A DNA stretch of 64,000 bases from Halothece sp. PCC 7418 (GTDB lineage Bacteria; Cyanobacteriota; Cyanobacteriia; Cyanobacteriales; Rubidibacteraceae), in the NCBI RefSeq assembly GCF_000317635.1, contig NC_019779.1, positions 1,178,001-1,242,000 of the forward strand. Direction: 5' to 3'. The translations under genes were made by a program, and so were the position numbers. Of the stretch, positions 12,180-21,364 are shown one piece after another (the first letter of the stretch is position 1; each line of letters starts with the position of its first letter). The notes beneath the pieces were generated by a model, which worked only from the letters and a program-made list of their open reading frames with translations, searched no databases and was not told where the DNA came from.

Positions 12180-13510
12180 CACAGCCCCTTGGGATAGTGC
12201 GAAAGCGCGAGGGGTTCGATGCCCCGAAGCTAAACAAAACCTAGATATGTTATAATCACAATGGTGAACTTTTGAAGACGATGGAACAGACGTTAACCCT
12301 AGTAGTAAAGCTGAATGTAGAACCTGAGCAAGCGGATCAACTTGAAGAGACTGCTCAGGCTTTTGCTAATGCTTGCTCTTGGATTAATGAAAACGTCAAC
12401 CATCGCTTAACGAATAGGAACTCCATCCAAGCTGTTTGCTACAGCGACGTTAAAGAAAGGTTTGGATTAAAGGCAAATCATATTGTCCGTGCTTGCGCCA
12501 GAGTAGGGGCTAACCGATCAACCGCCAAGGCAAAAGGTAGAAAAGTGAAAGGGTTTAAGCCTACTAGCTTTGATTGTGATGGTCGAACGTTCTCCTTTCG
12601 AGAAAAAGATTGGACTGTTAGCGTAACTACCCTTGGAAAGCGGTTAAGACTCCCTTTAAGAGCTAGCAACTACCATCGCGGAAAGTTAACGGGACAGAAA
12701 CCGACTTCGGCTCAAATCTGCAAGCATAAAGACGATCAGTGGTATGTCCACATTCAGCTTAAAAATATTCCCCCTACCCCTCAAAAGACATCTAATGTGA
12801 TTGGGGTCGATTTTGGGAGAAGGGAAATTGCTAAAACCTCAACCAATCAAGGCTGGGACGGGAAGAACATTCAACAAAAACGAGATAGGTTTAGTCGAGT
12901 AAGAGCATCTCTTCAGAAGAAAGCATCCCAAGGCAAGTCCGCGTCGCCTGGGGTTTCCCCAGGCGTTTATGCCGGAGGCACAAGGTCGTCTCGACGCAGA
13001 TGTCGAGAAGTCTTGAAACGGTTATCGGGACGCGAGAAGAGATATCAAAAATGGTTAAACCACAATATCTCAAAGCAAATCATTGAGGAGGCAAAGCAGA
13101 CCAACTCAACGGTGGCAATTGAAGATTTAACGGGCATTCGGGAGCGAACTAACCAGAAACCCAGAAACAAGACGGAAAGAAGACGGTCTAACAATTGGGC
13201 TTTCTATCAGTTAAGAACGTTCTTGGAATACAAGGGAATTAAAGAAGGAATTAAGGTAGTAGCAGTTCCTCCTGCCTATACCAGCCAAACTTGCCACTGT
13301 TGTAACCACATAGGAATTAGAACCAACAAAAATTTCAAGTGTTCTAATCAGTTTTGTGGTTGGATTGGCGATGCCGACTTAAATGGTGCTTTAATGATTA
13401 AGAAATGGGGCTGCTCTATAAACCAGCCTGGAGGCTCGGAAGTTCTATCCTGTAGAATTTCCAGGGCTACTGAAAACCCTAACCGAGCGCGAAGCGGGTT
13501 AGGGTAGTTT
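12180..13510 (+). mobile_element. Solo-TnpB element (IS1341-type IS605 relative)
   Basis: A single tnpB gene lies between a left structured end (CCCCT at 12185-12189 pairing with AGGGG at 12210-12214 around a GCGAAAGC stem) and a right hairpin (ACCCTAACC at 13476-13484 with GGTTAGGGT at 13497-13505). The right hairpin overlaps the tnpB stop codon, as expected if the 3' end of the gene also encodes an omega-RNA. No tnpA is present, so movement would need one in trans, possibly from the IS at 3-4.9 kb. Boundaries are approximate. Confidence 0.7.
12272..13507 (+). CDS. tnpB: TnpB nuclease with intact zinc ribbon
   Basis: A 411-residue TnpB. The RuvC residues are Asp180 (VIGVDFGRREIAK), Glu284 (VAIEDLTGIRE) and Asp369 (GDADLNGALMIKKWG). 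The zinc ribbon has Cys341, Cys344, Cys357 and Cys362. It is therefore a full-length, apparently active relative that differs from the cysteine-free TnpB at 3-4.4 kb. The start is TTG at 12272, with ATG at 12281 as alternative; a TATAAT box at 12250-12255 lies just upstream. Residues about 221-236, rich in G, S, P and V, look like an in-frame insertion: the DNA there holds a 9-bp perfect hairpin (12945-12965) and the flanking sequence reads smoothly without it. Confidence 0.85.
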   Translation: MKTMEQTLTLVVKLNVEPEQADQLEETAQAFANACSWINENVNHRLTNRNSIQAVCYSDVKERFGLKANHIVRACARVGANRSTAKAKGRKVKGFKPTSFDCDGRTFSFREKDWTVSVTTLGKRLRLPLRASNYHRGKLTGQKPTSAQICKHKDDQWYVHIQLKNIPPTPQKTSNVIGVDFGRREIAKTSTNQGWDGKNIQQKRDRFSRVRASLQKKASQGKSASPGVSPGVYAGGTRSSRRRCREVLKRLSGREKRYQKWLNHNISKQIIEEAKQTNSTVAIEDLTGIRERTNQKPRNKTERRRSNNWAFYQLRTFLEYKGIKEGIKVVAVPPAYTSQTCHCCNHIGIRTNKNFKCSNQFCGWIGDADLNGALMIKKWGCSINQPGGSEVLSCRISRATENPNRARSGLG

Positions 13511-13923
13511 ATTGTCTCATCTTCCGATCAGGAGATTGATTCCTCGCCACAACAGGAAATGATGAGGTTTTTTGCTGTCTCCATCAGAACTTAATCTGCT
13601 ATAGCACTACTTGAAAAGGGAAAGGCTAAGTGTGGAATCCAAATTAATTCAGTATAAATACTAGACAAATTCAAGAAATTCGAGCTATATTACTTATTAT
13701 TACGTAAATAATAACACTGGGATTAACCAGTTTAACAGTGCTTGTGGATCGGATCATTTTGAGCAACGGTCGCAGCCCGCCCCTTCCGTCTAGGCTAGGA
13801 GGGCGTAATCTGCGACTCCTTATCTCAAAACCATCAACTACGTATGTAATTGTACTAGCCATGGATAGTGATCTGCACGGAAGGGTGATTCCTGTTGTTT
13901 ACCTCCTGAAAACCATTGGTATC
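13508..13923. repeat. Repeat-filled intergenic region
   Basis: No gene is supported here. It contains a unit starting TATAGCACTACTTGAAAAGG (13600-13625; 25 of 26 positions recur at 43998-44023), a TTATTACGTAAATAATAA palindrome near 13692-13709, and the second GAGCAACGGT unit (13761-13795). An open frame through this stretch would add about 62 residues to the next gene but has no protein-like character and ignores that gene's signal peptide. Confidence 0.5.
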
Positions 13924-14724
13924 ATGAAAAATTCGGACACATCAAGGGTAAAAAGTTCGCTACTGCTTAAAAAATCTCCTATTTTCTACGTGATGTTTCC
14001 GTTAACGAGTGTCATCACCTTGAGTTTACCCGCTCAAAGTATTAGTTTATCCGAGACGAATTATTCTCTTGAACTCGATAATTTTAGTCATCAACCCGAT
14101 CGGGTGGCGGTGGAGGTTGAGGCTACTGTCAGTGCTCTTTCTTATGTTGGTTTTATCGAGACGATTGCGAGTTCTGAAGCCACTTTTATGTCTGAATCCT
14201 CCCTCATTTTTTCCCAGTCCTCTTCTGACATCAGGCTTGCTGGTGAGGGAAGTCGCTACTTCGGAAAAGCAGAAGTAAGGACACAAGCGATGGGACAATT
14301 TTCCATCGCAGCCGAAGAAGAATTCTCCTTTGATTATAAGGGATCATTTAATACGAAAGCCCTCTTCAATTTTCCAGACATCGAAGAATCAAGAACAACA
14401 GTGAATATTTCTTTACTGTTGAGTAATGAGACTCATGAAAAAGAGATTTATAACTTAAATTTTTCGAGTCATTCCTCACAAAATGCGGAAATTGCATTTG
14501 GGGGTCAGTTTCAAGAATATTTTGAAGAAGACACGCAATTCAATTTATCTGCGAAGACAGAAATTCAAAGCTGTCTTCAAAGTTTTCAAGAGGATCAGAT
14601 ATGTGATTCTTTTCCTCAAATCAATACCTCTACTGGTGTTCCGTTTAATGCTTCTGAAACATTAGGCTTGGTCTTCGCTTTGAGCTTTTTCATCGTCCGT
14701 TTGATTAAAAAGCATATAGTCTAA
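13924..14724 (+). CDS. Exported protein with PEP/PFE-CTERM-like sorting tail
   Basis: From ATG at 13924 the protein has 266 residues. It starts with a signal peptide: a basic stretch (SRVKSSLLLKKS), a hydrophobic core (FYVMFPLTSVITLSLP) and AQS as likely cleavage site. The body is rich in Ser, Glu and Phe with alternating beta-type patterns and no family I recognise. The C-terminus VPFNASETLGLVFALSF followed by RLIKKH has the short motif, hydrophobic helix and basic end of cyanobacterial PEP-CTERM variants, which are sorted to the envelope by an exosortase. The gene converges on the PpiC-like gene with a 63-bp 3' overlap. Its proximity to the export locus may be meaningful or chance. Confidence 0.6.
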   Translation: MKNSDTSRVKSSLLLKKSPIFYVMFPLTSVITLSLPAQSISLSETNYSLELDNFSHQPDRVAVEVEATVSALSYVGFIETIASSEATFMSESSLIFSQSSSDIRLAGEGSRYFGKAEVRTQAMGQFSIAAEEEFSFDYKGSFNTKALFNFPDIEESRTTVNISLLLSNETHEKEIYNLNFSSHSSQNAEIAFGGQFQEYFEEDTQFNLSAKTEIQSCLQSFQEDQICDSFPQINTSTGVPFNASETLGLVFALSFFIVRLIKKHIV

Positions 14725-15435
14725 TTCTTGAGCGAGCCAATCTTGAAACATTTCATCAAGGAGCATTTGATAAATCTCATTTGTTAGTTCTGGCTGGATA
14801 AACTTTTCTACTAAAAAAATATGATAGCCTTGTTCAGAAGCAAAAGGAGTGATGACACTGCCTGGGATTGCTTGGAAAACAAGTGTTGCTATGTTAGGTT
14901 TCAAGTCATGGCGATGAACTTTCCCCACATAGCCACACTGAATTCTCCGCTCTGGATCAACATCATATAAATGTGCAGCTTGATAAAAACTCAATTCTTC
15001 TTCTTCAATTTGATAAAAAATTTCCCATGCTAACTTTTCGTCAGCAAGAATCATTTCATACAGTAAGATTTGCTCAAATTGATGTTGATTTTGATTGAAT
15101 AAATCTGTAACAGCTTGCGAAAAAAGATGATTCGCCAGTTTGTGAGCAGCGAGATCTTCATAAATTCCAGCTTCCCAATCTTCAGGAGTGATTAATTCGT
15201 CATTTAACCACGCAAAGGTATCTTCAGCTTGTTCTAAGTGCATTTGATGACGAATTTTATCGGCTTCGGCTTGTATTTCTTCAGCACTAATTTCGAGTTG
15301 ATGATCCTGAATGGCTTGCTGAATAATTTTTTGGTGTAATATTTTGGTGCAAGTCTGTTTTAATTGAACTTGTCTTTTCAGAAACGCGACGATTTCTTCT
15401 GCTTCAATTATTTCACCTGAAACGTTAATCATCAT
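14662..15435 (-). CDS. PpiC/SurA-like peptidyl-prolyl isomerase
   Basis: A 257-residue protein with a helical SurA_N-like region (residues 1-140, rich in Gln/Glu helices) and a parvulin-type domain. Its hallmarks are the IQCGYVGKVHRHDLKPNI block near 178, VFQAIPGSVITPF near 201 and GYHIFLVEKF near 218. No signal peptide or lipobox is visible, so a cytoplasmic or exporter-linked role is likely. Similar rotamase genes accompany HlyD and C39-peptidase ABC exporters in cyanobacterial peptide clusters. It is the last gene of the minus-strand locus, 130 bp after the peptide gene, and a hairpin between them may lower its expression. Confidence 0.8.
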   Translation of the reverse strand: MMINVSGEIIEAEEIVAFLKRQVQLKQTCTKILHQKIIQQAIQDHQLEISAEEIQAEADKIRHQMHLEQAEDTFAWLNDELITPEDWEAGIYEDLAAHKLANHLFSQAVTDLFNQNQHQFEQILLYEMILADEKLAWEIFYQIEEEELSFYQAAHLYDVDPERRIQCGYVGKVHRHDLKPNIATLVFQAIPGSVITPFASEQGYHIFLVEKFIQPELTNEIYQMLLDEMFQDWLAQELDYMLFNQTDDEKAQSEDQA

Positions 15436-15474
15436 AAGTTTTTAGAAAGGGTCTCATCAGTCCGATTAGAATAA

Positions 15475-15514
15475 ATTGGAAAGAAGCGAAACTGAGAACT
15501 TGCTTCTTTCCAAT
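15475..15514 (-). terminator. Strong hairpin between peptide gene and ppiC (terminator/attenuator)
   Basis: ATTGGAAAGAAGC (15475-15487) and GCTTCTTTCCAAT (15502-15514) form a perfect 13-bp stem with a 14-base loop. On the minus strand it follows the peptide stop and is followed by TTATTCT, which is only moderately T-rich. Partial termination here would give many peptide transcripts and fewer ppiC transcripts; it could also stabilise the peptide mRNA. Confidence 0.6.
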
Positions 15515-15565
15515 TCAGACTTACGCTACGTTAACAGAACTCTAAAAAATGACGAGTTTCATGAC

Positions 15566-15826
15566 TTAAGCAGTAGCAGCGAATGCAGTGCTCTGTGCAG
15601 TAGCCACGGCTCCTTTACCTACAGCGACTGCTGCACCAAATGTGAAAGAAGCTGCAAACGAAGGGGGCTGATAGTAATATTTTGGTTTTTTATAGCCATA
15701 CATGGGTTTTTTGTAGCCTTTTTTCTTCTCAGGCTTTTCAGGCTTTTCATAGCTTTTTCCCCAGCCCCCTAAAAGGGTGTTTTCGTCAGCAACAACTTCC
15801 AAGTGTTTGAGATTAGAAATAACCAT
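15566..15826 (-). CDS. Double-glycine-leader peptide precursor (candidate cargo of the C39 exporter)
   Basis: An 86-residue precursor. I chose ATG at 15826 because AAGGAG lies seven bases upstream; the longer frame has no support. The leader LKHLEVVADENTLLGG ends in a Gly-Gly site expected for C39-peptidase cleavage, leaving a 65-residue mature part. That part has a Lys/Tyr/Pro-rich segment with repeats (EKPEKPEKKKG, then YKKP twice and KYYYQPP) and an Ala-rich, weakly hydrophobic tail (FTFGAAVAVGKGAVATAQS). No Cys, Ser/Thr cluster or modification enzyme suggests a lanthipeptide. The HetC-like exporter and HlyD adaptor lie upstream on the same strand. Bacteriocin, matrix protein and signalling peptide all remain possible. 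Confidence 0.75.
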   Translation of the reverse strand: MVISNLKHLEVVADENTLLGGWGKSYEKPEKPEKKKGYKKPMYGYKKPKYYYQPPSFAASFTFGAAVAVGKGAVATAQSTAFAATA

Positions 15827-16174
15827 TTTTTGCTCCTTATTGGTGTGAGTAAATAGCCTTTCGGCTTCAACACTTTTAAATATAATTGCTTGAGCCAGAA
15901 TCGTAATGCCATATTGGCATAAGTTTTTGATTTTTTGGGAAAAGAACAGTAATTCGTGCAGAAAAAGGACAAATCCATTGGGATATAGCACTTCCCAATC
16001 TCATGAGGTACATTCTAAATTTTGGTTCTTTGTTCTTTGTTCTTCGTTCTTTGTTATTTCTTGGTTGTTAATCAATGAACCACGAACTATGAACCATGAA
16101 CATCCACCGACTCGCATTACGTACCTCAACCAACTAGGAAACGCCATAGTTTTTTCAAGGATGATTTGAGATCA
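15827..16174. other. Spacer between hetP-like and peptide genes
   Basis: This 348-bp stretch is mostly occupied by MITE copy 2 (15984-16148). The remaining 150 bp next to the peptide gene is A/T-rich and probably carries a separate peptide promoter. No other gene is supported. Confidence 0.5.
15984..16148. repeat. MITE-like element, copy 2
   Basis: It is inverted relative to copies 1 and 3. It starts TATAGCACTTCCCAATCTCA then TGAGGTAC, and ends with GTACCTCAACC and CTAGGAAACGCCATA. The ends are imperfect inverted repeats sharing TATAGC, TTCC and TGAGGTAC at the same spacing. The interior is a run of GTTCTTTGTTCTT-type units and ATGAACCATGAAC. It lies between the hetP-like gene and the peptide gene. 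Confidence 0.75.
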
Positions 16175-16570
16175 CTATAAGCGGATAGAAAGACTCTTAC
16201 GATAAGAGATCAACTTAGTTGAGTAATACGGTTGTCTTCCTCCTTTCACCTTACTGTGAGGAGTCTGCTTGACGTAATTTAAGTCTTTAATGTGAGGCGT
16301 AGATGAAGAGGAGCAGTTGGAATTTTTAGTCTGCTTGGGCTGGATCTTTGATTGTTGATCGGAAGGGGAAGTGGTACAGTTATTTTTAATAAGACGATTA
16401 TAGGTTCGATAGGGGATATAATGCAGTGGGTTGTATCCTGCTGTTTCTAGAACTAGGACACAAGCCCAAGAATATTTACCAGCTAGAATAGCATCAATAA
16501 TTTGATCAAATTTTTCTTCACTCATGATTGGGTTACGCTCCTCATTGAAGGAAGATTTTTGATACGACAT
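16175..16570 (-). CDS. HetP-like protein
   Basis: A 131-residue protein whose core (residues about 21-65) contains ILAGKYSWACVLVLETAGYN and HYIPYRTYNRLIKNN, the conserved block of the HetP family. A second, shorter family block is IKDLNYV near residue 95. In Anabaena HetP acts just after HetR in heterocyst commitment and its gene follows hetC; paralogues there modulate timing. The C-terminus here is short, basic and unlike Anabaena HetP. Two in-frame starts each have a ribosome site: ATG at 16570 after GAGGAG and ATG at 16525 after GAGGAG. The gene lies 66 bp after hlyD. Family is clear; function in this organism is unknown. Confidence 0.82.
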   Translation of the reverse strand: MSYQKSSFNEERNPIMSEEKFDQIIDAILAGKYSWACVLVLETAGYNPLHYIPYRTYNRLIKNNCTTSPSDQQSKIQPKQTKNSNCSSSSTPHIKDLNYVKQTPHSKVKGGRQPYYSTKLISYRKSLSIRL

Positions 16571-16636
16571 TGTTACACTCCTCTTAATGATGTGAATTGG
16601 TACAAAATTTTTATGCGAGGTGCAGGAAGAATTTGT

Positions 16637-18055
16637 TTAGAGCTTAAAGCCACTTTCTCGTAGCTTTCGCAAGGGCTCAAAAATGACCTCAGCAATGCGA
16701 CGGCGACGAGTTACAATTTCAGCACTGGCACTTTGACCTGGTTGAAATTGAATGGTTTGCTGATTATGTTGAATATAGTTGCGATCCAGAGCAATTTCTA
16801 CTTGATAGAATGTTCCTTTTTCGGTTGTTTTTGAAGTGGGAGAAATGGATAATACTTTTCCTTCAACGACTCCATAGTCTTGATAGGGGTAAGCATCAAA
16901 TTTGATGTTAACATCCATATTTTTTTCAAGAAAACCCGCTTCTTGGTTAGCAATCATAGCATCTAACACAAGGGGAGAATCTTTCGGTGCAATTTCTGCA
17001 ATAGTTTGTCCTGGTTGTAGCACTTGACCAATGTTTTGTAAGTTGAGAGATAAGACTGTTCCATCTACAGGAGACTGTAAAAAAGTTTCCTGTTCTTGAT
17101 TTTTAGCAATGGCTAATTCATTTTTAGTTTCTATAATTTTTCCTTGAAGTTCTTCGATGTTAATCTCAAGTTGTTTAATTTGTTGCTCTGCTTCAAGCTG
17201 AGTTCGAGTTTTTTGTTGATCCTTTTGCGCGAGTTCTACTTCCAGGCGTTCCGCCTCTTTTCGGGTGGCATTAATCTCACTTTGTAATTGTAAAACTTTC
17301 ATCTTACTATCTTGTAAGGCTTGCTGAGCTTGAAAGACATATTCTTGAGAAATTGCACCACTTTTTTCCAAGGGTTGGAGTCGTTCTAAACGTTGTTTAT
17401 TTTGATTCACTTCTTGTTGTAATGCTGCCAGTTGTTGCGTTTTACTCATCAGTTGCTCTTGGGCATTGGCAATCACAACCGATTGCACTTTTAGGTCAGA
17501 ATTGGCAATTTCTTCACCATTTAGTGCTTCTATTTTTTTAACTTGTAGTAAGTTTTGTTGCTGTTGTAATTGGTTTTGATAGGTTTCTAATCTTTGCTCA
17601 ATTTTATTAATTTCTTGTTTCAGTTCTTCTGCATCTAAACTGGCAAGAACTTCTCCCGCAGCAACAGTATCTCCTTCTTCAATCAAGAGTTGTTTGATTC
17701 TGCCATTGGTACTAGGTTCTACTTTATAGGTTTTTCCTTGAGGAACTAATGTTCCTTGTGCGCGTCCCACTTCTTCTACTTTGCCAAACCAAGCCCAGCT
17801 ACCAAAGGCAAGACAAAAAATTAAACCACCTAAAAGAAACCGTAAGGGAAAAGAAGCAGGGGGTTGTTCTAAAAGATTGAGTACCGATGGAGAATAACCA
17901 TTAGAAACATGATTTAAAGCAGAGGAATTCACTTTACGAATAGCGGAGGAGTTTTGAGGACTTTCCTGAGAGGATTGATGGGACTGTGAGTGACTGGGTA
18001 ATTGGTAATTTTTTTTCGGAGAAGGTGAGTGATTGGAAGGGGATTCTAAAGGCAT
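16637..18055 (-). CDS. HlyD-family membrane fusion protein (exporter adaptor)
   Basis: A 472-residue periplasmic adaptor. A polar Ser/Gln-rich cytoplasmic N-terminus (about 75 residues) precedes one membrane helix (FLLGGLIFCLAFGSWAWFG). Then come a half lipoyl domain (GTLVPQGKTYKVEPSTNGRI), a long coiled-coil hairpin (residues about 150-320), the second half lipoyl domain (SPVDGTVLSLNLQNIGQVLQ) and beta-barrel parts. It would bridge the HetC-like inner-membrane exporter to an outer-membrane TolC channel encoded elsewhere. ATG at 18055 follows GGGAGAAAATA. It is preceded by a 216-bp gap after the exporter gene, so it may have its own promoter. Confidence 0.88.
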   Translation of the reverse strand: MPLESPSNHSPSPKKNYQLPSHSQSHQSSQESPQNSSAIRKVNSSALNHVSNGYSPSVLNLLEQPPASFPLRFLLGGLIFCLAFGSWAWFGKVEEVGRAQGTLVPQGKTYKVEPSTNGRIKQLLIEEGDTVAAGEVLASLDAEELKQEINKIEQRLETYQNQLQQQQNLLQVKKIEALNGEEIANSDLKVQSVVIANAQEQLMSKTQQLAALQQEVNQNKQRLERLQPLEKSGAISQEYVFQAQQALQDSKMKVLQLQSEINATRKEAERLEVELAQKDQQKTRTQLEAEQQIKQLEINIEELQGKIIETKNELAIAKNQEQETFLQSPVDGTVLSLNLQNIGQVLQPGQTIAEIAPKDSPLVLDAMIANQEAGFLEKNMDVNIKFDAYPYQDYGVVEGKVLSISPTSKTTEKGTFYQVEIALDRNYIQHNQQTIQFQPGQSASAEIVTRRRRIAEVIFEPLRKLRESGFKL

Positions 18056-18271
18056 TATTTTCTCCCGTTGTCATTACTTTTGATTGTATTGCACCCTAAA
18101 AAGATCTTAATTTATTGATGAGAATAAATTCTGCCAACTTGGCAACTTTTTCTTGAGGTTTAAGGTAAGAGGCGGACAAAGTGACTGACGTTTTGATCAT
18201 TAAATTGAGTGCATCAAATAATGAGATCAAAACGATTTCTTATCGGAAGTTAAGAGTGACTTGATCGGGGT

Positions 18272-21200
18272 TTAAATATCAATTTGCTGTTTAGCTAAGT
18301 GATAGTATAATTGCTGGGCTTCAATTAATTCCTCATGAGTTCCTTTTTCTACTAATAAACCTTGATTTAAGACTAAAATGCAGTCGGCATCGCGCACGGT
18401 GGAAAGGCGATGGGCAATGATAAACGTGGTTCGATCGCGCTGGAGACGTTTCAGATTACTTTGAAACCGTTGTTCCGATTCCGTATCGAGGGCACTAGTG
18501 GCTTCGTCGAGAATGAGCAGTTTGGGATGATCTAACAAAGCCCGCGCGATCGCGATTCGTTGCCGTTGTCCTCCCGATAAGGTTGCTCCTCGCTCTCCCA
18601 CTTTCGTGTTATAACCAAGGGGCATGGCTTGAATAAAACTGTGTGCTTCAGCAAGTTTGGCTGCTTCAATCACTTCTTCGAGGCTAAACTCAGGTCGGTA
18701 CATCGTAATATTTTCTAAGATGGTTCCAGAGAACAAAAAGCAATCCTGAGAGACAACCCCCAGTTGGGAACGGAGAGAATGAGGCGAAACGTGCCGTAAG
18801 TCGTGACCATCAATAAAAATCCGTCCCTGATCTGGTTGATATAACCCTTGCAGCAGTTTCACCAGCGTACTTTTACCAGATCCACTGCGTCCCACAATCG
18901 CGATCGTTTCTCCAGCATTAGCCTCAAACGACACCCCATCCAGAGCATTCTGTCCTTCTTCTGCACTATAACCAAAGACAACATTCTGAAAACTGACATT
19001 CCCTTCTAACTGCGGTAAAGGAAGCATAGTTTGGTCTGCAGTTTCCTCGGATTGCACAAGGAAGACATCATTGAGTCGTTCCACTGCAATCAAGACTTCT
19101 TGTAATTCATCCCAAATATTCGCCAATGCCAAAATGGGATTAATCACCCGTCCCAGCAGCATATTAAAAGCAACCAGTTGTCCAATAGTGAGTTCGCCTC
19201 GAATCACGAGACTCGCCCCGTACCATAACAACGCTGTTGATCCAATAATGTTAATAAAGCCATTAAGGGCTTCGAGTTTGATCCCAAATTTTTCTTGCCG
19301 AAAGCTAGTATTCAAAAAATCGGTGAAATGGCTTTCCCAGCGCCACCGCAACTCTTGTTCTGAAGCCGTGGTTTTAACGGTTTCGATACCAGTAATCGTC
19401 TCCACAAGGGCTGAATTTTCCGCAGCCGATTGATTAAACACTTGTCGGGAGAGTTTTCGCATCCAAGGGGTAGCGATTAAGGTTGAGATCATAATCGGTG
19501 GAATAATAGCAAGAATCAAAAAGGTTAATTCCCAGTTGTAGTAAAACATCAACCCGAGATAAACCACACTCATCAGGATGTCTAACCAAGCCACCATCCC
19601 ATTACTAAGTAAAAACTGTTGGATTTTTTGATTCTCATTGACGCGGGTGAGAATATCCCCCACTTGACGGGATTCAAAAAACTTAAGGGGGAGTTTCATC
19701 GTATGACGAATAAACCCGCCAATCATGGTTAAATCCAAAATATTGGCGAGATAGCTAAACAAATACTGTCGGGTTGAGGATAAAATCACTTCCGCCATTC
19801 CAAAAATCAAAATCCCGATCGCGAAAACATTCAACATACTTAAGCTGCGAGTGACGACCACTTGGTCGAGAATGATTTGGGTAAACAACGGCGTGACCAG
19901 ACCGAAGACTTGAATTAACAGTGACGCTAAGATGATTTGGAAGGCGGTTGATTGATAGGGGAACAGGAGCTTAAAAAATCTCCCTAAAGAGGGCTTTTCA
20001 TCAGGGAGTTCTTTTAACTGTTCAGTGGGGTTAAGTAACAGCGCATATCCTGTCCAACCTTGCAAGAATTCTCGTTTGGATAAGCTAAACTTACCCCGAG
20101 CGGGATCAGCGACCAGCACTCGCCTTTTCTGCACGTGATAAACCACTACATAATGATCTCCTTGCCAGTGAGCAATCCAAGGATTATTCTGAATCGTACT
20201 CACTAGGGCATCTAAACTACCTCGTACTGGTTTGGCAATATAGCCTAATTTTTCCGCAACTTTAGCAAGTACAGAGAGGGATGTACCAGAACGCCCGACA
20301 TTGCCTAAACTGCGAACAGAATTAATACTCAATCGTTTGTCCCAGTACAGGCTAATCATGACCAAACAAGCAATCCCACAATCAGAGCTACTTTGTTGTT
20401 CAATAAAGGGATAACGTCGCCAAATCCGTTTTCGTCTGCTTTGGGGTTGAGGAAATTCCACTTCAACGGTTTCTGTCGGTAAAGCCGAGGTAGCAGCGGT
20501 TTGACGCTGCGATGACTTTTCGGACTTGGGGACAATCGGAGATGGGGTCGAGAGTTGGTGGTTGTTGGTTTCGGGGTGATGATCGGGTTCTGAGGTTGAG
20601 AGTTGGTGTAAGTGCTCTTGGGGAAGATAATAGAGTTTGAGCGGGGTTTGCGCGACCCAATCCGAGCCGACGGGATCGGTATCTCCCCAGGCCTTGACCG
20701 ATGAGGGATGAATTTGACCTTGACGTAGCCAAAATCGTCCCGCTTGGGTCGGTGTGGCTTCCGCGAGAGACGTACCTGCAGCCATGTCTAGGGCTTGGAG
20801 ATGAGGAACAATCCCTTGCAAACGATGGGCGGGAAAGGTTCTCAGTTCAGTTAAGGTTTTCAGAAATATTAAGCGTTGTCGCTTCTGAGCGATTTTGATC
20901 CAAAGGGTTTTCAGTTGCGGATACTCTCGAAACCATTTATTTTGTTGGGATCTCCTGAGACGAGCGACTGCTACAGGAGTGGTATTGTCAGCAGCGACCA
21001 CTTGATAAGATAAACCATTCTCTTCCGCAAGTTGATCACCTCCAAATAATGCTCCTTGTTTTAAAACTTCTACTGAGACTTGTCGTTGTTTTTGCGGGTC
21101 AAAACTGAGTAAGCGCACTCGCCCTTGCGTAATGCAATATAAATCCTGATCCGATTGGTTATTGTCTTGTTCAGAGGTAGCTAAGTATTCATAAATTAAA

Positions 21201-21364
21201 TCACCAAAGTGAAAAGAAAGGGATGTAAAGTCATTACTAAAATTGGTAATCACTTTCTGATCTAGGCTTTCTAAGATGGGGTCTTGTTTCAAGACACTTG
21301 ACAACAGACTTTCCTGTGAAAGGGTCGAGGATGGTTTTCCTTGATGATTGAAATCAGTCTGCAT
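18272..21364 (-). CDS. HetC-like peptidase-containing ABC exporter with cNMP-binding domain
   Basis: A 1030-residue protein. Residues about 40-165 form a cyclic-nucleotide-binding-like domain (FGDLIYEYLATSE, then GRVRLLSF and ALFGGDQL). A variable Ser/Pro/His-rich linker follows. The C39 peptidase has Cys329 (SSSDCGIACLVM), His404 (QGDHYVVVYHV) and Asp420 (VADPARG), so it looks catalytic. Six membrane helices span about 470-755. The ATPase has GRSGSGKSTLVKLLQG, LSGGQRQRIAIARALL and LLILDEATSALD. This order is that of HetC, required for heterocyst differentiation, and of bacteriocin exporters. It should cut double-glycine leaders and export the product. It is first in a minus-strand locus with HlyD, HetP-like, peptide and PpiC genes. 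Confidence 0.88.
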   Translation of the reverse strand: MQTDFNHQGKPSSTLSQESLLSSVLKQDPILESLDQKVITNFSNDFTSLSFHFGDLIYEYLATSEQDNNQSDQDLYCITQGRVRLLSFDPQKQRQVSVEVLKQGALFGGDQLAEENGLSYQVVAADNTTPVAVARLRRSQQNKWFREYPQLKTLWIKIAQKRQRLIFLKTLTELRTFPAHRLQGIVPHLQALDMAAGTSLAEATPTQAGRFWLRQGQIHPSSVKAWGDTDPVGSDWVAQTPLKLYYLPQEHLHQLSTSEPDHHPETNNHQLSTPSPIVPKSEKSSQRQTAATSALPTETVEVEFPQPQSRRKRIWRRYPFIEQQSSSDCGIACLVMISLYWDKRLSINSVRSLGNVGRSGTSLSVLAKVAEKLGYIAKPVRGSLDALVSTIQNNPWIAHWQGDHYVVVYHVQKRRVLVADPARGKFSLSKREFLQGWTGYALLLNPTEQLKELPDEKPSLGRFFKLLFPYQSTAFQIILASLLIQVFGLVTPLFTQIILDQVVVTRSLSMLNVFAIGILIFGMAEVILSSTRQYLFSYLANILDLTMIGGFIRHTMKLPLKFFESRQVGDILTRVNENQKIQQFLLSNGMVAWLDILMSVVYLGLMFYYNWELTFLILAIIPPIMISTLIATPWMRKLSRQVFNQSAAENSALVETITGIETVKTTASEQELRWRWESHFTDFLNTSFRQEKFGIKLEALNGFINIIGSTALLWYGASLVIRGELTIGQLVAFNMLLGRVINPILALANIWDELQEVLIAVERLNDVFLVQSEETADQTMLPLPQLEGNVSFQNVVFGYSAEEGQNALDGVSFEANAGETIAIVGRSGSGKSTLVKLLQGLYQPDQGRIFIDGHDLRHVSPHSLRSQLGVVSQDCFLFSGTILENITMYRPEFSLEEVIEAAKLAEAHSFIQAMPLGYNTKVGERGATLSGGQRQRIAIARALLDHPKLLILDEATSALDTESEQRFQSNLKRLQRDRTTFIIAHRLSTVRDADCILVLNQGLLVEKGTHEELIEAQQLYYHLAKQQIDI

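Follow-up and report, generated by a model that had tools for sequence, protein, structure and literature searches.

A five-gene locus on the minus strand of the genome of Halothece sp. PCC 7418 appears, on a slight balance of probability, to be a small-protein export locus in which a HetC-type exporter secretes a peptide with a double-glycine (Gly-Gly) leader, and in which the C39 peptidase domain of that exporter also takes HetP as a client. The locus lies in the window, the 64,000-nucleotide stretch of contig NC_019779.1 (positions 1,178,001 to 1,242,000) that was analysed, and its genes follow one another in the order exporter, HlyD-type adaptor, HetP, peptide and PpiC-type isomerase. A sequence-only reading of the window had proposed these five identities, and profile matches recovered all five at the positions it gave. 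The locus is of an already known cluster type and what makes it of interest is the junction of the developmental and the natural-product literature, which describe the same genes and which, once joined, name a testable candidate for the substrate of HetC. An apparently non-heterocystous cyanobacterium carries the exporter and the partner gene that heterocyst formers use for commitment to nitrogen fixation; the origin of this developmental gene pair is placed in a widespread export locus, the likely older form of which persists in a genome that gave no match to HetR.

The window HetP (16175..16570, 131 residues) combines a conserved three-helix core with a low-confidence, probably disordered tail. 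The core (residues 4-64, 16379..16561) matches NF037966 at 113.2 bits against a curated cut-off of 45, and an AlphaFold model shows three helices (18-65) with the rest at low confidence (mean pLDDT 61.9); a Foldseek search with this model gave no match at E <=0.001. The sequence-only reading had overlooked a leader-like motif ending in Gly-Gly inside HetP (residues 94-111, 16238..16291), IKDLNYVKQTPHSKVKGG, which was located with a leader profile and by alignment. It scores 8.5 bits to that profile, and differs from the printed consensus KIxDLxYLEx10GG in the first K, the LE and the spacing. The 20 residues that follow (16178..16237) are, from the alignment, the piece that a cut by C39 would release. 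The profile was built here from 146 small-peptide leaders (consensus IISDLNYLEVVSEETSIVGG), HetP frames being excluded, and HetP tails were judged against a threshold of 5 bits, which does not require Gly-Gly (the tail at L073 scores 6.2 without it). The wider survey found HetP in 45/120 genomes of an order sample and in 96/388 of a class sample; 139 regions around HetP matches, a part of those listed, were fetched and scored against the window proteins, some of them ending at contig ends and one (L102) being excluded as it holds no HetP. Family f33 was taken as the heterocyst family, five of its 23 genomes corresponding to named formers (L184, L232, L255, L256, L258). Outside f33, 65/83 HetC-linked HetP tails, the window included, reached the threshold, as did 1/1660 shuffled tails and 0/892 C-termini of other open reading frames (ORFs). 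Among unlinked tails the figure was 10/27; six of these stand on a short contig or have a broken exporter next to them, and three come from G091, which has its exporter elsewhere. Sixteen non-heterocyst genomes with HetP had no exporter above 600 bits and so none of the HetC clade, and the motif Gly-Gly was absent in all 12 of them from which HetP was read, representing eight genera. In an alignment with 21/22 rows from heterocyst formers, conservation in HetP is higher in the core than in the parts that follow it, the linker and the tail, and the length of the tail ranges from 6 to 63 residues (72 tails); L239 was left out of HetP alignment A2, having a stop codon within the given coordinates.

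The cargo peptide most likely occupies the frame 15566..15826, with a 21-residue leader, MVISNLKHLEVVADENTLLGG, followed by a mature part of 65 residues in which Lys, Tyr and Ala are abundant. Its N-terminal leader ends in Gly-Gly, as that of a double-glycine precursor should, and scores 18.8 bits to the leader profile, of which it is probably itself one of the seeds. The profile derives from the same loci and is not independent for discovery, and it is the controls that carry the claim: 0/8000 shuffled ORFs reached the 10 bits used as the threshold for Gly-Gly small ORFs, and 0/16 exporter-less HetP loci had such a gene. The window stretch and the fetched loci together yielded 159 Gly-Gly small ORFs of at least 10 bits. 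At least one lay on the hetP strand within 6.5 kb in 48/56 full loci whose downstream stretch measured 4 kb or more, with 114 on the hetP strand and 12 on the other strand in those loci, and none was found more than 500 bases upstream of hetP in the full loci scanned. Tandem arrangements occur, such as three peptides in L072 that are alike over the residues compared and four close copies in L048.

The sequence-only reading had suggested that hetC-hetP is a peptide-export type of locus, and this proved to extend far beyond one strain. All four large genes were present, in any order, in 62/106 HetP loci outside f33, the window included (58 genomes), a raw count set against no computed random expectation. 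The remaining loci had exporter, HlyD and HetP (19), HetP alone (15), HetP and PpiC (4), HlyD, HetP and PpiC (3), HlyD and HetP (2) or exporter, HetP and PpiC (1). The gene order of the window is the usual one, rearranged exceptions including L046, L049, L051, L068 and L130. Neither outcome that the sequence-only reading had named as refuting it came about: the gene order is not confined to a single strain, and it is not the case that the exporter groups with unrelated bacteriocin exporters while the HetP neighbours vary at random. A chance cluster was ruled out by the occurrence of all four large genes together in 58 genomes. A tie to nitrogen fixation as such was also rejected, nifD being over the cut-off in 13/45 genomes with HetP and in 25/75 without it (order sample). 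Among 40 relatives, all 11 genomes with an exporter above 1000 bits have HetP, as does G010 with its broken exporter, and of the other 28 only two (G020 and G032) have HetP, in both cases with a degenerate tail. The four proteins, where all are present (61 loci), have correlated pairwise distances, with r between 0.52 and 0.86; exporter and HetP gave r = 0.55, and such correlations could come from shared ancestry alone. A HetP tree was not used class-wide as the core is only about 60 residues long. In L078 and L081 (G042 and G084) two HetPs flank a single hetC-hlyD pair, and the Gly-Gly motif is found only in the HetP downstream of hlyD. The window genome itself is a single contig of 4,179,170 bases with one HetP and with nifD (851 bits), and it lacks a match to HetR_C in a search that was positive in 5/9 genomes; we take the strain to be non-heterocystous.

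The exporter (18272..21364, 1030 residues), assigned to the HetC type by profile matches and by its placement in a clade, has a cNMP-binding N-terminus, a C39 peptidase, an ABC transmembrane domain and an ATPase. The C39 domain (residues 318-448, 20021..20413) matches Peptidase_C39 at 124.6 bits and has the cysteine box QxxxxDCG, and ABC_membrane and ABC_tran were also matched, which qualifies the protein as a C39 peptidase-containing ABC exporter (PCAT); the cNMP-binding domain (residues 70-129, 20978..21157) is barely over its cut-off (27.7 against 27.5 bits). Residues 312-1026 match PDB 4ry2 and 6v9z at 449-454 bits, which we take to be the bacteriocin transporter PCAT1; this shares the C39-ABC architecture, differs in having no cNMP domain in the matched chain, and has no association with HetP that we know of. 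Against an anti-phage library the exporter had matches in its ATPase half alone (mad3, mad8 and ATPase-Toprim). The periplasmic adaptor (16637..18055, 472 residues) was identified by Pfam and NCBIfam matches, TIGR01843 being reached at 234.3 bits against a cut-off of 208.65, and the isomerase (14662..15435, 257 residues) by the Pfam Rotamase family at 41.2 bits, the score for TIGR04500 (peptide maturation proteins) falling below its cut-off (60.7 against 180 bits).

In a FastTree phylogeny of 92 exporters, for which 38/78 non-heterocyst exporters were drawn at random, the window was added and 18 heterocyst hetC loci were picked by hand, the HetP-linked exporters (39 non-heterocystous, the 18 heterocyst hetCs and a second copy from G465) form one clade with a support of 99. 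The 18 heterocyst hetCs make up a clade of their own (support 100) nested inside it, and are again one group in a 45-row IQ-TREE subset; the root of the exporter tree depends on a single long outgroup row. The window exporter, lying in the same clade as heterocyst HetC, can be regarded as a HetC orthologue. Because heterocyst HetC nests within the HetP-linked exporters, the window locus is likely to show the older form of the hetC-hetP arrangement, which agrees with the ancestry in an export locus that the sequence-only reading had proposed for HetC and HetP. The cysteine box is present in 91/92 rows, the window included, the outgroup row being the exception; a C39 histidine pattern combined with the box matched 69/92 rows and was judged too strict and left unused. 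Another clade (support 100) contains 16 exporters of 12 heterocyst genomes that lack upstream hetC, together with 15 downstream copies and 2 exporters from HetP-less genomes. As 16/16 exporters from those 12 genomes sit there, the treatment of long-type exporters as one undivided group was rejected. The tree covers part of the exporters from these genomes; six further such f33 genomes were judged on score alone, although one of them, which corresponds to L258, is represented there by its downstream copy.

The pairing of exporter and motif was also followed amongst the heterocyst formers. In the 23 genomes of f33 the Gly-Gly of the HetP tail is kept in 5/5 with a hetC-type exporter beside hetP (G035, G077, G111, G381, G465) and in 3/18 without one (G094, G297, G460). 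A second set, the named heterocyst loci, consists of the best 80 of 223 and does not include the PCC 7120 locus; four (L197, L217, L238, L241) were unscored on account of short contigs or a broken hetC. Of the 76 scored, those with an intact hetC had Gly-Gly in 34 cases and lacked it in 5 (four RGRG, one RGA), and those with hetC absent or a remnant had it in 17 and lacked it in 20 (Fisher p 1.9e-4 for the association, the rows not being independent). "Lost" here means that no hetC over 350 bits lay within 6.6 kb upstream of hetP, and most of these genomes were not searched whole. By this measure hetC is missing or a remnant in 37/76 scored loci (in the range L189-L262, including Nostoc, Anabaena, Trichormus, Brasilonema and others), although it is reported to be essential in Nostoc PCC 7120; Nodularia without hetC has been published already. 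In many named loci hetC and hetP persist together with a short HlyD-like frame, and a ppiC follows downstream. The HlyD-like frames between hetC and hetP in L193, L203, L204, L223 and L233 are weak (306-435 residues, 30-141 bits) and perhaps represent reduced adaptors. At some loci, L185, L206, L233 and L256 among them, a second long-type exporter of another clade follows hetP at a distance of about 4-5 kb downstream, and several such exporters are accompanied by HlyD and a second PpiC. A Gly-Gly small ORF over the threshold was found in only 1/80 named loci, the stretch scanned being up to 4.5 kb on the hetP strand downstream of the gene and at some loci shorter because of contig ends. The small ORFs in the first 1.6 kb after hetP, inspected in three heterocyst loci, included no patC-like peptide with a leader.

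Much of this machinery has been described before. Wang 2011 described the cluster types, the neighbouring HetP-like proteins and the motif KIXDLXYLEX10GG as bacteriocin machinery, listing 13 HetP-type precursors and suggesting an M16 peptidase as the protease that cuts them, and Micallef 2015 gave the same account of the HetP-type motif for 13 Subsection V genomes; a linked cargo, which the sequence-only reading had placed outside the classical picture, was thus already in print. The window has the long-type exporter (CAP_ED-C39-ABC), HlyD and rotamase of Wang's groups I and II, together with a HetP-type protein with a Gly-Gly motif, and differs in being known from its genes alone, the bacteriocin label being a published class name. 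The M16 peptidase of group II has its nearest PF00675 match at contig positions 987819-988250, about 204 kb from the window locus, and C39 is therefore the only protease among the five genes. In the case of heterocyst development, a 2024 paper on HetC, in which a domain of the protein was purified, reported that the C39 domain is active and essential in Nostoc, that the cNMP domain binds ppGpp and that the substrate of HetC is unknown; it stated that near hetC no double-glycine gene is found and asked whether HetP derivatives could be exported. The same literature indicates that deletion of the C39 motif in Nostoc was bypassed when a HetP-GFP construct raised the hetP transcript three- to fourfold, heterocysts and diazotrophy being restored. 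The available parts of the 2014 and 2024 HetC papers do not mention a Gly-Gly motif in HetP, and a partial literature search, which did not take in the main HetP paper (PNAS 2016), found no paper that joins the Gly-Gly cluster or the HetP motif to HetC. The hetC-hetP loci of the Nostoc/Anabaena PCC 7120 type resemble the window in the clade of their exporter (18 sampled hetCs), in the motif carried by many of their HetPs and in neighbouring genes, and differ in that a cargo ORF was found in only 1/80 scanned stretches, HlyD beside hetC is weak or absent, and the window genome gave no HetR_C match. A further parallel is PteB-EbfG of Synechococcus elongatus PCC 7942, where efficient secretion of the EbfG proteins requires the C39 exporter PteB and EbfG1-3 are amyloid in a test system; the likeness, one of type, extends to the small Gly-Gly proteins and to Tyr and Pro in their mature parts, and the difference is that no HetP partner appears in the parts of that literature examined.

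The following sequence of events can be envisaged. The C39 domain of HetC would bind the leader of the Gly-Gly peptide and cut after Gly-Gly, and the mature peptide would leave by way of HlyD and an outer-membrane channel whose gene lies elsewhere, with PpiC aiding the folding of precursor or product. In HetP the three-helix core leads, through a linker that is probably disordered, to the leader-like segment, which Gly-Gly closes and a short tail follows; HetC would dock on HetP there and perhaps cut it, the core staying in the cytoplasm and the tail of about 20 residues being released. Heterocyst formers have kept hetP, and often hetC; because they are mostly without a cargo gene beside hetP and have the adaptor reduced or absent there, HetP may be the last Gly-Gly client left. 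A peptide-export type of locus, as in the sequence-only reading, is supported, and the biofilm, matrix or adhesive role of the cargo would follow by analogy to EbfG. Nothing was found in favour of the further idea of that reading that HetP regulates the locus; HetP itself bears a cargo-type leader motif and has rather the look of a client of the exporter or a partner to it. Recognition of HetP by the C39 domain of HetC is considered to have a somewhat better than even chance of being real, and putative cleavage is rated below it because extra HetP provides a bypass and because the HetP-GFP fusion is cytoplasmic. It is only tentatively suggested, as a possibility more likely to fail than to hold, that HetP is the long-sought substrate of HetC and that commitment grew out of small-protein export, the cargo having been lost and C39 cutting of HetP having become the switch, with the core kept inside and the tail possibly acting as a signal.

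A number of observations weigh against HetP as a C39 client. The bypass by extra HetP, which counts in favour in so far as it agrees with a place for HetP downstream of HetC, also suggests that uncut HetP can work when abundant. In Nostoc a C-terminal HetP-GFP fusion is cytoplasmic and apparently functional, with the same localisation when the C39 motif is missing (a native hetP copy being present), and this argues against full export of the HetP tail. The motif is not needed at every HetC-linked locus, as far as the tails themselves indicate: 18/83 fall below 5 bits, ten of them without Gly-Gly, one cut by the contig end and seven with a low-scoring Gly-Gly, and both loci of the close relative G121 are among the ten. 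The motif can also outlive the exporter, as in G094, G297 and G460, and at the named loci 17/37 HetPs without upstream hetC keep Gly-Gly and 5/39 with hetC lack the motif. When ancestry is taken into account the association of hetC and motif does not reach significance: of 6 pairs about 3.4 were concordant and 0.1 discordant, with a median p of 0.25, and with the test run the other way the figures were 3.5 against 0.0 of 8 pairs, median p 0.125. The correlation in heterocyst formers fits in direction and is not established, the ancestry-aware test being underpowered.

These observations bear in different ways on the alternatives to a HetP client. The proposal of Wang 2011 that HetP is a true precursor, in which the core serves as an extended leader domain and the piece beyond Gly-Gly is the bacteriocin product, draws on the 13 precursors listed there, on the 13 genomes of Micallef 2015 and on the match between the HetP motif and the cargo leaders, and it is nevertheless thought unlikely, given the higher conservation of the core, the spread of tail lengths from 6 to 63 residues, and a HetP-GFP that in Nostoc stays in the cytoplasm and furthers differentiation. 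A polar HetP-GFP that is apparently functional despite a C-terminal fusion would suit a segment that binds C39 uncut as a docking or occluding mimic, tuning export or bringing HetP to the membrane, as would the altered glycines of the five heterocyst HetPs with intact hetC; there is little expectation that this is correct, as Gly-Gly is kept in the other 34/39, which is more than docking by itself should need. That HetP is an unrelated regulator, carried in the locus through block inheritance of an operon with its motif a relic, would be consistent with the persistence of motif-less paralogs away from hetC, with the correlated distances of all four proteins and with the motif in some heterocyst formers that lack hetC. 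It does not readily account for the motif match in 65/83 linked tails from many families, nor for its absence from 12/12 non-heterocyst HetPs in genomes without the exporter clade, and is regarded as quite unlikely. Improbable, finally, is a cargo that is a lanthipeptide-type bacteriocin instead of a matrix or adhesive protein; the published class name speaks for it, but the mature parts are rich in Ser, Ala, Thr, Gly and Tyr, and few of them (11/159) contain cysteine, which tells against a lanthipeptide.

Two other ORFs lie close to the locus on the plus strand of the window. That at 13738-14724 overlaps the end of ppiC on the opposite strand, has a C-terminus that is both hydrophobic and basic, and has no family match above the cut-off in the Pfam and NCBIfam scans. 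The ORF at 12272-13507 has, by eye, the look of an IS200/605-type TnpB, with pairs of CxxC.

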